64,000 nt of DNA from Mucilaginibacter inviolabilis (GTDB lineage Bacteria; Bacteroidota; Bacteroidia; Sphingobacteriales; Sphingobacteriaceae), in contig NZ_JAANAT010000003.1 of assembly GCF_011089895.1 (NCBI RefSeq), forward strand, positions 558,001 through 622,000. Direction: 5' to 3'. Shown here one piece after another: positions 9,879 to 22,916 of this stretch; position 1 is the stretch's first letter, and every line of letters begins with the position of its first letter. A program made the position numbers and the translations under genes. Below the pieces are notes generated by a model, which had not been told where the DNA came from, did no database searches, and was given only the letters and a program-made list of their open reading frames with translations.

Positions 9879-9890
9879 CCGACTGATGGC

Positions 9891-9963
9891 TGTCACCCTG
9901 AGCTCTGTCGAAGGGTGGAGCGCAGAGGCCTGCCCGCCATGCTTCGACGAAGCTCAGCATGAC
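9891..9963. repeat. dispersed hairpin, TGTCA..CTGAGC family
   Basis: Left arm TGTCACCCTGAGCTCTGTCG, right arm CGACGAAGCTCAGCATGACA. Related elements lie at 37829, 39048, 48623, 49993 and 50980. It is placed directly beyond the previous hairpin and before the GNAT gene's stop. Confidence 0.85.
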
Positions 9964-9990
9964 ATCCTTTGAAAAACACAAAATCCGAAA

Positions 9991-19048: not shown

Positions 19049-20572
19049 ATGACGATCTTTAATTCGGTATTCACCTGGTTCATGAAAAAGCGTATCCATC
19101 AGATAGAGCTTTTTATGAAGTACCCCAATGAGGTGCAGGAGGAATGGTTTGAACAACTGATATCCGGTGCCGAAAATACCGAATGGGGACGCAAATACCA
19201 GTATAAAAGCATTGAGAACCTTAATCAGTTTAAAGAGCGGGTACCTATACAAAGCTATGATACGCTTAAGCCCTATATCGAGCGTATGCTCCTTGGCGAG
19301 AAAAATGTATTGTGGCCTTCGGAGATTCGCTGGTTTGCCAAATCCTCAGGAACGACCAATGATCGGAGCAAGTTTATTCCCGTAAGCGAGGAAGCGCTGG
19401 AGGAATGCCATTTCAAAGGCGGTAAAGACCTGCTCACCATTTATTTTAATAACCAGCCGAATGCCCGCATGTTCACCGGGAAGATATTGACATTGGGTGG
19501 TAGTCACCAGATGAGTCAGCTAAGCGCCGATACTTCTTTTGGCGATCTTTCTGCAGTAATCATGAAAAACTTACCTCTTTGGGCTGAGTTTCACCGTACG
19601 CCCGATCTGGACATAGCCCTGCTGGAAAACTTTGAGGAAAAGATAGAAAAGATTGCACAGGCCACCAAAGATGTGAATGTAACCAGCATCAGCGGGGTAC
19701 CCACCTGGAATCTGGTGCTGTTTAAACGTATACTGGAAATTACCGGCAAAAAAAATCTATTGGAAGTATGGCCCAACCTGGAGATGTATTTTCATGGCGC
19801 GGTTAATTTTACCCCCTATCGCGAGCAGTTTAAGGCGCTGATTCCAAGTGATGATATGTATTACCTGGAGAATTACAATGCCTCTGAAGGCTTCTTTGGT
19901 ATTCAGGATACCAAAGAGCCGGGAGATATGCTGCTGATGCTGGATTATGGGATATTTTACGAGTTTTTACCTCTGGAGAACCTGTATGACGAAAATCCCA
20001 AAACGCTTACATTGGATGAGGTGGAACTGGATAAAAACTATGCACTCATTATAACCACTAACGCCGGATTGTGGCGTTATATGATAGGCGATACCATTAA
20101 GTTTTCCTCGTTGTCGCCATTTCGCATACAGGTTACCGGGCGTACCAAGCATTTTATCAATGCGTTTGGTGAGGAAGTAATTATTGACAATGCCGAGCGG
20201 GCCCTGGAAGAGGCTTGTCGCCAAACCGGTGCTATCATCAGGGAATACACTGCCGCTCCGGTCTACTTTAATGGAAATGATTGTGGTGCGCACGAGTGGA
20301 TCATTGAGTTTGAAAAAAAACCCGCCGAATTTGAACGTTTTGTTGATCTGCTTGATGAAACCTTGCGCCGTATCAATTCCGACTATGATGCCAAGCGTTT
20401 TAAAGATATGGCCCTGCGCCGCCCCATTGTGCGCCGTGCACCCGAAGGCACTTTTTTCAATTGGATGAAAGAAAAAGGCAAATTGGGCGGTCAGCATAAA
20501 GTACCCCGCCTGGCCAACAACCGTGAATATATTGACGCCATTTTGAAAATTATGGAGCCGGTGGGGAGTTAG
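19049..20572 (+). CDS. GH3 (auxin-responsive promoter type) acyl-acid amidosynthetase homologue
   Basis: This 507-residue protein is of the GH3 superfamily (ANL adenylating fold), in plants adenylating jasmonate or auxin and linking it to amino acids. Family marks: SSGTTNDRSKFIPVSEEAL (adenylate loop, near 107-125), VTSISGVPTWNLVL, YNASEGFFGIQD, LIITTNAGLWRYMIGDTIKF and VTGRTKHFINAFGEEVI. Bacteroidota commonly carry one copy; the natural substrate is unknown. The start follows a short A/T leader that contains TATCTTGACTC words. The protein ends 3 bases before a REP-pair palindrome. Confidence 0.9.
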   Translation: MTIFNSVFTWFMKKRIHQIELFMKYPNEVQEEWFEQLISGAENTEWGRKYQYKSIENLNQFKERVPIQSYDTLKPYIERMLLGEKNVLWPSEIRWFAKSSGTTNDRSKFIPVSEEALEECHFKGGKDLLTIYFNNQPNARMFTGKILTLGGSHQMSQLSADTSFGDLSAVIMKNLPLWAEFHRTPDLDIALLENFEEKIEKIAQATKDVNVTSISGVPTWNLVLFKRILEITGKKNLLEVWPNLEMYFHGAVNFTPYREQFKALIPSDDMYYLENYNASEGFFGIQDTKEPGDMLLMLDYGIFYEFLPLENLYDENPKTLTLDEVELDKNYALIITTNAGLWRYMIGDTIKFSSLSPFRIQVTGRTKHFINAFGEEVIIDNAERALEEACRQTGAIIREYTAAPVYFNGNDCGAHEWIIEFEKKPAEFERFVDLLDETLRRINSDYDAKRFKDMALRRPIVRRAPEGTFFNWMKEKGKLGGQHKVPRLANNREYIDAILKIMEPVGS

Positions 20573-20575
20573 ATT

Positions 20576-20733
20576 CGTCGGCAGGGGGCCAGGTTATAAC
20601 CGTCACTCGGCTGGAGCCAAGCGACTGCAGGAGTCTATTGGATAGATTTAGGTAGAAAATAAAACGATTAAAAAAACAACAGCCGTCGCTCGGCTCCAGC
20701 CGAGTGACCACTATTACCCGGCCTCCGGCCGAT
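20576..20733. repeat. REP pair (BIME-like), left flank of the RAYT gene
   Basis: Two REP-like units lie in inverted orientation. The first starts CGTCGGCAGGGGGCCAGG and contains CACTCGGCTGGAGCCAAGC; the second contains CGCTCGGCTCCAGCCGAGTG and CCCGGCCTCCGGCCGA. Relative to the right-hand copy the first unit carries several mismatches that weaken its stems. The stretch is much richer in G+C than its surroundings. Confidence 0.88.
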
Positions 20734-20747
20734 ATCAAAAGACACAA

Positions 20748-21282
20748 ATGTCCGAATTCCGCAAAGCCAATACCGATCGGCCATTTTTTATTACGCTTAC
20801 AGTAGTTGGCTGGATAGATAGATGTATTTACCAGAAGCGAATACTGCGAAGAGTTTTTAAAGAATCTGGAATTTTGTCGTACCAACAAAGGCCTGAAAGT
20901 ATATGCTTATTGTATCATGAGTAACCATATTCATTTGATTGTAGGTTGCGAAGAAGCTAAACTTCCTCAAATTTTCCGGGATCTTAAAAGCTATACAGCG
21001 AAAAGGTTGATAGAAATGATAAGCAATGACCCTGGTGAAACCAGAAAGGAATGGTTACTTTATCTATTCAGATATTTTGCCAATAGCACCTTACAAAACA
21101 AGGAGTATCAATTTTGGCAAAAAACAAATCATCCCACGGAATTAATAACTGCAAGTGTATTTGATCAGAAGGTCGATTATATTCATCATAATCCGGTACA
21201 GTCGATGACGGTTAATGATCAGACAGCTTTTGTGTATAGCAGTGCTAATCCAGATTCTACTTTTAAGGTTGATGAAAGTTAA
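20748..21282 (+). pseudogene. REP-associated tyrosine transposase (RAYT), frameshifted
   Basis: ATG at 20748 opens MSEFRKANTDRPFFITLTVV followed by GWID, the normal RAYT N-terminus, but the frame is lost at 20814-20823 where GATA is tandemly duplicated (GGATAGATAGATG). Removing four bases restores D-V-F-T-R-S-E-Y and joins the downstream frame (KVYAYCIMSNHIHLIVG, the HUH metal motif; VFDQKVDYIHHNPVQ, with the likely catalytic tyrosine). The repaired protein would be 177 residues, full length for the Y1/RAYT group. An internal ATG at 20917 would yield only a truncated 121-residue protein. REP pairs flank it on both sides. In family members the enzyme cleaves and moves REP single strands. As read it is inactivated, unless the frame is recovered by slippage. 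Confidence 0.9.
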
Positions 21283-21288
21283 TTGTCT

Positions 21289-21423
21289 TCGTCGGCCGGA
21301 GGCCGGGTTATAGTCATCACTCGGCTGGAGCCGAGCGATTGCTTGCTCTTTTTTGTTTCATGATATGATGTGCCGTCGCTCGGCTCCAGCCGAGTGACCG
21401 ATATTACCCGGCCTCCGGCCGAT
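21289..21423. repeat. REP pair (BIME-like), right flank of the RAYT gene
   Basis: TCGTCGGCCGGAGGCCGGG and CACTCGGCTGGAGCCGAGCG on the left are mirrored by CGCTCGGCTCCAGCCGAGTG and CCCGGCCTCCGGCCGA on the right, around a 35-base A/T-rich centre. The stems are intact, unlike the first unit of the left copy. It starts 6 bases after the RAYT stop. Confidence 0.92.
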
Positions 21424-21433
21424 AGCTTCAACA

Positions 21434-21491: not shown

Positions 21492-22916
21492 TTATGACAT
21501 TTTAAGCTTCTTTTGAATGTCGGCAACGTAACCCTTAAATTTCTTATCGGTATCAATAAGGTCTTCAACGGTTTGGCAGGCGTATATCACGGTAGAGTGG
21601 TCGCGGCCGCCAAAGAAGTGACCGATTGATTTTAATGAACTTTTGGTGTGTGCTTTGGCCAGGTACATAGATATTTGACGAGCCTGTACAATTTCGCGTT
21701 TGCGGGTTTGCGATTTTACCATTTCAATAGGCACTTCAAAATACTCGCAAACCAGACTTTGGATATACTCCATCGAAATTTCTTTGGATGAGTTTTTCAC
21801 AAAGTTCTTCAGCATTTGCTTAGCCAGGTTCAGGTCGATCTCCTTGCGGTTCAAGGTTGATTGAGCCAGCAGGGATACCATGGCGCCTTCCAGTTCACGC
21901 ACATTGTTATCAATGTTATGCGCTACATACTCAATTACATCGTTTGAAAGCTCGATGCCGTCCTGGTAGATCTTGTTTTTAAGGATAGCCATACGGGTTT
22001 CCAGATCAGGGATCTGCAAATCGGCAGAAAGCCCCCATTTAAACCTCGAAAGCAAACGCTCTTCTAAACCGGCCAGGTCCTTAGGCGCTTTATCTGATGT
22101 GATGATCAGCTGCTTGCCCGATTGATGTAAGTGGTTAAAGATGTGGAAGAAGAAATCCTGTGTTTTTTCTTTACCGGCAAAATTGTGCACATCATCCATG
22201 ATCAGTACATCAATAGCCTGGTAAAAGTTCACAAAATCATTAATGTTATTGTGTTTAAGCGCATCAACAAATTGCTGGGTGAATTTTTCGCACGATACAT
22301 AAAGTACCAGTTTATCGGGCAATGAGCGCTTTATCTCGTTACCAATGGCCTGGGCCAGGTGGGTTTTACCTAAACCAACACCGCCGTATATCATTAAAGG
22401 ATTAAAAGAAGTACCTCCGGGTTTTGCAGCAACGGCATAACCGGCAGAGCGGGCTAAACGATTGCAATCACCTTCAACAAAGTTTTCAAAAGTGTAGTTT
22501 CTGTTTAACTGCGGATCAACATTTAATTTTTTCAAGCCGGGGATCACAAAAGGGTTTTTAATGTCCTTATTGATCGAGATCGGGATCGGCATTGACTGAT
22601 TTTTGGACTCGGCACCATTTCCGTTCGAAGGCATATTAGTGGTGTATGGTTTACTTGATGATTGCTCAACAACTATATTATACTCTAAACGTCCTTCGTC
22701 GCCTAATTGTTTTTTAATTGTTTTGCGCAGTAAACCTACATAGTGCTCCTCGAGCCACTCGTAAAAGAATAAACTTGGTACCTGTATCGTCAGAACGCTT
22801 CCTTCCATGCGTAAAGCTTTTATTGGCTCGAACCAAGTTTTAAAGCTTTGTGCTGGTATGTTATCTTTTATGATCTGGAGGCAGCTATTCCAAACAGTAG
22901 TACAGGTTTTTTCCAT
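21492..22916 (-). CDS. dnaA: chromosomal replication initiator DnaA
   Basis: This 474-residue protein has all four DnaA domains: N-terminal protein-contact domain I (about 1-85, SFKTWFEPIKALR), a variable linker (about 90-130), the AAA+ domain III with Walker A GGVGLGKTHLAQA and Walker B VLIMDDVHNFAGK, and the DNA-binding domain IV with the signature SLKSIGHFFGGRDHSTVIYA near the C-terminus. It opens the replication origin and is also a transcription factor. ATG at 22916 gives a standard N-terminus (MEKTCTTVWNSCLQII). No DnaN neighbour is present and the upstream gap lacks consensus DnaA boxes. Confidence 0.98.
   Translation of the reverse strand: MEKTCTTVWNSCLQIIKDNIPAQSFKTWFEPIKALRMEGSVLTIQVPSLFFYEWLEEHYVGLLRKTIKKQLGDEGRLEYNIVVEQSSSKPYTTNMPSNGNGAESKNQSMPIPISINKDIKNPFVIPGLKKLNVDPQLNRNYTFENFVEGDCNRLARSAGYAVAAKPGGTSFNPLMIYGGVGLGKTHLAQAIGNEIKRSLPDKLVLYVSCEKFTQQFVDALKHNNINDFVNFYQAIDVLIMDDVHNFAGKEKTQDFFFHIFNHLHQSGKQLIITSDKAPKDLAGLEERLLSRFKWGLSADLQIPDLETRMAILKNKIYQDGIELSNDVIEYVAHNIDNNVRELEGAMVSLLAQSTLNRKEIDLNLAKQMLKNFVKNSSKEISMEYIQSLVCEYFEVPIEMVKSQTRKREIVQARQISMYLAKAHTKSSLKSIGHFFGGRDHSTVIYACQTVEDLIDTDKKFKGYVADIQKKLKMS

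Follow-up and report, generated by a model that had tools for sequence, protein, structure and literature searches.

In the sequence considered here, a gene for a REP-associated tyrosine transposase (RAYT; 20748-21282) lies between a GH3-family gene and dnaA, and its reading frame is broken by a tandem gain of four bases. This raises the question of whether the gene is in recent decay or is turned off and on by the loss and gain of a repeat unit; a reading made without database searches (the sequence-only reading) had put forward both. The window, by which we mean the whole 64,000-nucleotide stretch analysed (G000:C3:558001-622000), belongs to a Mucilaginibacter assembly of 7.15 Mb in 13 contigs. 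The nearest named matches are the Mucilaginibacter MAG RYN_307, strain L294 and M. rigui, and the search of the genus took in 149 Mucilaginibacter genomes. We consider it very likely that the locus is a REPtron, that is, a RAYT gene with its own REP pairs, which has been inherited vertically at the GH3-dnaA junction and which a duplicated GATA unit has very recently inactivated. The features on which this answer rests are collected in Table 1.

Table 1. Features of the RAYT locus and its neighbours, in window coordinates.
Feature	Coordinates	Strand	Remarks
GH3-family gene, upstream neighbour	19049..20572	+	Pfam GH3, GH3_M, GH3_C; orthologue adjoins the RYN_307 RAYT
REP r1, decayed, outer REP of upstream pair	20576..20628	+	85% to r3; folds no better than shuffles
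REP r2, inner REP of upstream pair	20682..20734	-	96% to r4; two-hairpin fold, z -2.8
RAYT first piece; frame kept from the N-terminus as far as WID, lost from there to the stop	20748..20924	+	N-terminus common to RYN_307 and G147
Frame-breaking tandem unit GATAGATAGAT	20813..20823	+	GATAGAT or less in relatives read
RAYT second piece, 152 codons in ancestral frame, HuH/W/Y motifs	20824..21282	+	PF01797, NF047646; aligned with 15 relatives
REP r3	21290..21342	+	Similarity; two-hairpin fold
REP r4	21372..21424	-	Similarity; two-hairpin fold; r3-r4 pair z -14
dnaA, downstream neighbour, converging on the RAYT gene	21492..22916	-	Pfam DnaA_N, Bac_DnaA, Bac_DnaA_C

A RAYT gene in two frames

The reading frames confirm what had been claimed of the gene's anatomy. 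Translation from ATG 20748 gives a RAYT N-terminus (MSEFRKANTDRPFFITLTVVGWID), a GATA duplication then breaks the frame, which stays lost until the stop at 20922-20924, and the motifs SNHIHL and DYIHHNP, together with FWQ, stand in the other frame, a run of 152 amino acids from 20824 to the stop at 21280-21282. The first piece (MSEFRKANTDRPFFITLTVVGW) agrees with the N-termini of the RYN_307 and G147 genes. A full protein of 177 residues had been given for the repaired gene; the two pieces sum to 176 (24 + 152).

The Y1/HuH transposase domain that marks a RAYT is present. The second piece matches Y1_Tnp (PF01797) at E 1e-7 and scores 71 bits against REP_Tyr_transpos (NF047646), a model whose cut-off of 80 bits is set for whole proteins and against which three intact relatives score 83, 89 and 91 bits. 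Matches to solved structures were weak and fell on IS200-type transposases (best E 0.0088; 4 of 177635 distinct sequences). The intact frame of a working RAYT is missing, the break lying at 20813-20823, and the window gene is, by its reading frames, a RAYT pseudogene rather than an active RAYT.

For subclass 2.6 the motifs are NH[LIV]H, WQ and YIH[QN]NP. The window gene carries NHIH, WQ and YIHHNP, the last of which departs at the Q/N place, a position occupied within the clade by Q, N, D, R or H; 84 residues separate its HuH motif from the tyrosine. Motifs, spacing and phylum together suggest that the gene fits subclass 2.6 (Bertels group 5). In this clade the first HuH histidine (window 20917-20940) is preceded by S in 12 of 16 members and by N in four, the window gene included.

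The window genome has one RAYT copy of this clade. Elsewhere it holds three further Y1 transposase genes with open frames (L286, L287 and L288): two, of about 150 aa each, have YI[EK]NQExHH motifs such as are listed for subclass 1.2, and the third, of 181 aa, has NHFH and YIHQNP. Near the ends of contigs C4 and C5, L003:1303-1740 and L004:1402-1839 are copies of a RAYT of another family, internally deleted (92% over 438 bases); they are possible miniature elements derived from a RAYT.

How the frame was broken

At the break an ancestral GATAGAT has become GATAGATAGAT, a GATA run of 2.75 units. The shorter GATAGAT, which encodes a conserved Ile-Asp, is found at the site in RYN_307 and others, and polymerase slippage on it, duplicating one GATA unit, would be the most likely cause of the lesion. 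Among all the loci compared, those of the window genome are the only ones with the exact three-unit site. The tandem four-base nature of the lesion, as it had been described, stands; the run itself is no longer than chance would give, since the window contains four period-4 runs of at least 11 nt and simulations lead one to expect 3.7 (range 1-7). A truncated product would end at 58 residues, and as this is short of the HuH motif no active enzyme would be expected from it.

Three other accounts of the break have to be weighed. The one that survives best, improbable as we judge it, is an error of assembly or consensus over a gene that is intact in the cell; a mixed culture is likewise conceivable. 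Such an error would sit well with a frame that is otherwise clean, but the usual assembly error is a single base in a homopolymer, unlike a tandem gain of four. The base-level quality of the window speaks against it too: 68 of 77 matching reference ORFs from G022 and G086 align in one frame at 90% or more and without a stop, eight of the other nine are antisense to a longer ORF, and the ninth aligned over 310 of its 364 residues. At the thresholds used, none of the 77 was split into two frames, the ninth case being partial.

Slightly less probable again is the low-copy switch that the sequence-only reading had offered. As a reversible device, gain and loss of a GATA unit would toggle the RAYT and spare the genome constant transposition. 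The lesion is indeed a whole tandem unit that one event could revert, and what remains of the gene is clean enough to be switched back. The scan of 76 relative loci yielded 31 rows in which a GWID-type site could be read, some of them from a locus already represented, and in 17 of these ATA precedes GAT or GAC, which makes the repeat possible; in the other 14, however, a different codon breaks it, and a third unit is absent from all 31. The tract is of chance length, whereas known phase-variable tetranucleotide tracts are much longer, and the nearest relatives are without the gene, relatives having lost it by deletion or other lesions. A literature search on tetranucleotide-repeat phase variation in Bacteroidetes gave no paper on RAYT by title. 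On tract length, chance expectation and the state of the relatives we set the switch aside as improbable: GATAGAT appears to be a slippage-prone site that chanced to slip, not a maintained tract.

Least probable is recoding, in which a programmed +1 shift or a restart at ATG 20917 would still yield a product; this ATG overlaps the first stop (ATGAGTAA), standing 5 bases ahead of 20922, and starts an open run of 121 codons that includes the HuH motif, but it is the conserved Met before that motif in 16 of 16 members compared, its product would be without the first 55 residues of the fold, and the relatives read have a single frame across the site.

A probably old resident with a lesion that looks young

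Duplication of a GATA unit in a long-resident gene, our preferred reading, makes demands on both the history of the site and the age of the lesion. An intact RAYT orthologue occupies the same GH3-dnaA site in RYN_307 and agrees at 86% over the second piece. Nine further genomes have a clade RAYT adjoining GH3 or dnaA, and the M. rigui RAYT has neither as its neighbour. Within the roughly 5.5 kb read around each of 16 clade loci, both genes flank the RAYT in two, GH3 only in six, dnaA only in three and neither in five. At the six GH3-only loci dnaA does not adjoin the RAYT (in G147 it is about 150 kb off), and at the three dnaA-only loci GH3 lies some 20-35 kb away. The most economical interpretation is that the genes originally stood in the order GH3-RAYT-dnaA and that this arrangement was later broken on one side or the other.

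The trees point the same way among the nearest members. In the RAYT tree the window gene joins RYN_307 and then G147, G152 and G079, as it does in the GH3 tree; farther out the two trees disagree, G143 grouping with other members. Silent divergence from RYN_307 is 0.74 per site for RAYT and 0.69 for GH3. A recent arrival of the RAYT was considered, and set aside in view of the shared site and of a silent divergence akin to that of GH3. Single in copy, placed as in RYN_307, with one neighbour kept in nine more of the 16 loci and with nearest-member trees that agree, the gene appears most simply to be an old, vertically inherited resident.

The lesion, by contrast with its host gene, looks young. 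The 152 codons past the break contain neither a stop nor a further frameshift, and they show no excess of amino-acid changes and no relaxation on the window branch. Judged against three outgroups, that branch has 12-18 silent and 3-4 replacement changes, and the RYN_307 branch 16-23 and 6-7; G171 (end shift) and G078 (stop) were excluded from the codon alignment and enter neither set of counts. In neutral simulation, replacements numbered about 17 when sites had changed at 0.05 each and about 31 at 0.10, and a run of 152 stop-free codons has a probability of 0.17 under neutral drift of 0.10 per site. Free drift has probably not gone beyond a few hundredths of a change per site, a bound that is rough because silent sites are near saturation against RYN_307. 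The same saturation makes dN/dS against RYN_307 (0.02) of little use, and we rely on the per-branch counts instead. Of the two possibilities first put forward, it is recent decay that is upheld, by the intact orthologue at the same site, the want of a second lesion and the lack of any sign of relaxed selection past the break.

Loss of the gene in relatives

Eight genomes, the window genome among them, make up two sister groups in the midpoint-rooted GH3 tree. RYN_307 has an intact RAYT, the window genome the frameshifted gene and G022 a REP scar; in the other five (G086, G155, G116, G061 and G098) the GH3-dnaA site contains neither this RAYT nor such a REP. Support within G000/G022/G086/G155 is 69-70% in the GH3 tree, so the losses are not exactly countable.

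The scar in G022 runs from the GH3 junction through the r1 side and reaches the dnaA junction through r3-r4. As r1 and r3 repeat each other in the same orientation at a distance of 714 bases, a deletion between them is the economical explanation, and most likely the RAYT was removed by recombination or slippage between the two, one hybrid REP pair being left behind. The head of the hybrid REP is closer to r3 than to the present, decayed r1, so the exact joint is not fixed and an origin in r1 is argued from the GH3 junction and a handful of bases; it is also conceivable that the G022 site represents the state before insertion. Inside this hybrid REP sits a 177-bp element with inverted ends CACAGGTGTTGGGAAG (L166:1820-1996). 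In the GH3-dnaA gap of G155 (L285:436-1530) neither RAYT nor REP is present; the gap contains an ORF of about 360 codons, which to the eye looks as if it has a nuclease-type N-terminal domain.

Related species have lost the same gene in other ways, the M. rigui RAYT by a frameshift near codon 108 and that of G078 by an in-frame TAA. Gene decay at the window locus is of an ordinary kind, and these other losses make it more telling.

REPs at the locus and across genomes

Two inverted REP pairs frame the RAYT in the positions that had been claimed; the stems given for the pairs do not hold for r1, which reads AGCCAAG and is folded as well by 126 of 200 shuffles. The other three form two hairpins each (z -2.2 to -2.8). 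A sound REP consists of a small hairpin CGGCC-GGA-GGCCG, an ATA-bearing linker and a larger hairpin GTC-A-CTCGGC/GCCGAG-C-GAC with an A/C mismatch. We examined this fold in 23 REPs (four from the window, five from elsewhere in its genome and 14 from six relatives): 96.6% of cells pair, a rate biased upward because the REPs were chosen by eye around the stems, and slid versions pair at 30-44%. Less dependent on that choice are the compensatory changes, with both sides altered in 6 of 14 pairs, as where GGC/GCC has become GCG/CGC in three REPs, and with a covariation score that none of 500 shuffles reached. CGTC-tagged REPs (PMC3733652) were considered in view of the GTCA at the stem foot, but set aside: their published stems and tails are different, and they reportedly have no transposase.

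The REP pairs go far beyond what chance would give: the downstream pair folds at z = -14, and across the 7.15 Mb the stem pattern turns up at 10 places when up to one mismatch is allowed (8 are exact), a reversed control at none. By similarity (E up to 0.01) there are 13 places, four at the RAYT and nine at seven other sites, so that the gene is flanked by inverted REPs with copies elsewhere in the genome. Three of the seven sites match REP sites of G022 along both flanks, two of them also one of G086 or G155, and the REPs at these three are consequently older than the split. The REP pair at C6:149752 is unmatched in G086 and G155, which have 1.2-1.3 kb of other DNA without such a REP between matching flanks, and for the remaining three sites the flanks had no long match among the REP loci compared. 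Conversely, one REP site shared by G022 and G155 was examined and has no REP in the window genome; five further shared sites fall outside that comparison. Comparing the G022 site L233 with the window genome also brought up a high-copy repeat of about 90 bases, unrelated to the RAYT-locus REPs, at G000:C3:567888-567970 (window ~9888-9970) and some 40 other places in the genome.

Counts in relatives are of matching rows, with both orientations of the palindrome included. The window genome has 31 such rows at E up to 10; under a stricter limit, E 0.01, there are 68 in G022, 50 in G155, 16 in G086, 49-52 in G147, G152 and G079, and none in G116, G061 and G098. One of six genomes searched (that of L065) gave no REP match. 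As G022 has lost the gene and yet holds more REPs than the window genome, REP number does not simply track the presence of the RAYT.

Upkeep of these REPs by another transposase of the genome was also considered. Apart from the window gene, a PF01797 search found four Y1 transposases over the cut-off and a protein search two RAYT fragments, and their loci (about 3.1-3.4 kb each) contain no REP of the RAYT-locus family. This argues against such upkeep, cross-action being still conceivable, and the REP family seems to be left with no evident transposase of its own. Because none of the other Y1 transposases found has this REP family at its flanks, the RAYT-locus REPs should no longer be copied, and uncopied REPs would then decay or be deleted.

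Implications and comparison with known systems

The current view is that RAYTs persist because of some benefit to the host and that they maintain their REPs. The window genome offers an apparent young natural knockout, RYN_307 a living orthologue at the same site, and G022 a close relative without the gene; together they allow REP numbers and REP decay to be compared with no need to construct a mutant. That a gene under strong past constraint has still been repeatedly lost is suggested by these loci, and bears on the nature of the host benefit. More tentatively, and with slightly less than even confidence, we propose that the REPtron carries the means of its own removal in its outer direct-repeat REPs, and that REP-mediated deletion and unit slippage repeatedly clear a constrained, vertically inherited RAYT from beside dnaA in one lineage. 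If so, matched species with a live, a freshly dead and an excised RAYT would make RAYT upkeep of REPs measurable.

Among known systems the nearest is RAYT/TnpAREP subclass 2.6 (Bertels group 5) as set out in PMC6006769; the RAYT groups were defined in a 2017 paper, according to PMC6006769 and PMC8049555. The window RAYT resembles this subclass in its Bacteroidota host, its NHIH, WQ and YIHxNP motifs, the SS after its core (by eye), its low copy number, the lack of a GT[AG]G foot on its REPs, the REP copies elsewhere in the genome and a HuH-Y distance close to the published median of 82. It differs in being frameshifted, in that most of its clade has S where NH[LIV]H is tabulated, and in having well-formed two-hairpin REPs with compensatory changes, whereas the REPs of subclass 2.6 are described there as free of GT[AG]G and of weaker, atypical structure. 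Subclass 2.5, in the same source, spans Xanthomonad and Pseudomonad species. Single copy and vertical inheritance are stated for RAYTs in PMC8049555.

Frameshifted or nonsense RAYTs outlived by their REPs are described in Pseudomonas and Stenotrophomonas in PMC3686654, where a model predicts slow REP decay after the loss. Our locus likewise combines a lesioned RAYT gene with leftover REPs, but it belongs to another phylum and another RAYT subclass, adjoins dnaA and has a probable REP-to-REP deletion scar in a close relative. The 2010 paper PMC2817692 associates one third of RAYTs with multi-REP BIMEs and reports no RAYT homologues in other major bacterial lineages. It also describes RAYTs flanked by inverted REPs; the window gene is similarly framed by REPs in inverted orientation, but has a full inverted pair on each side and is itself broken. 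Set beside these systems, and with no prior report of the following found among the matches listed from the open-licence literature, in so far as its texts were accessible, the locus adds a RAYT resident beside dnaA in the Bacteroidota, a REP of regular structure associated with a subclass 2.6-like RAYT, and what is probably an excision between REPs.
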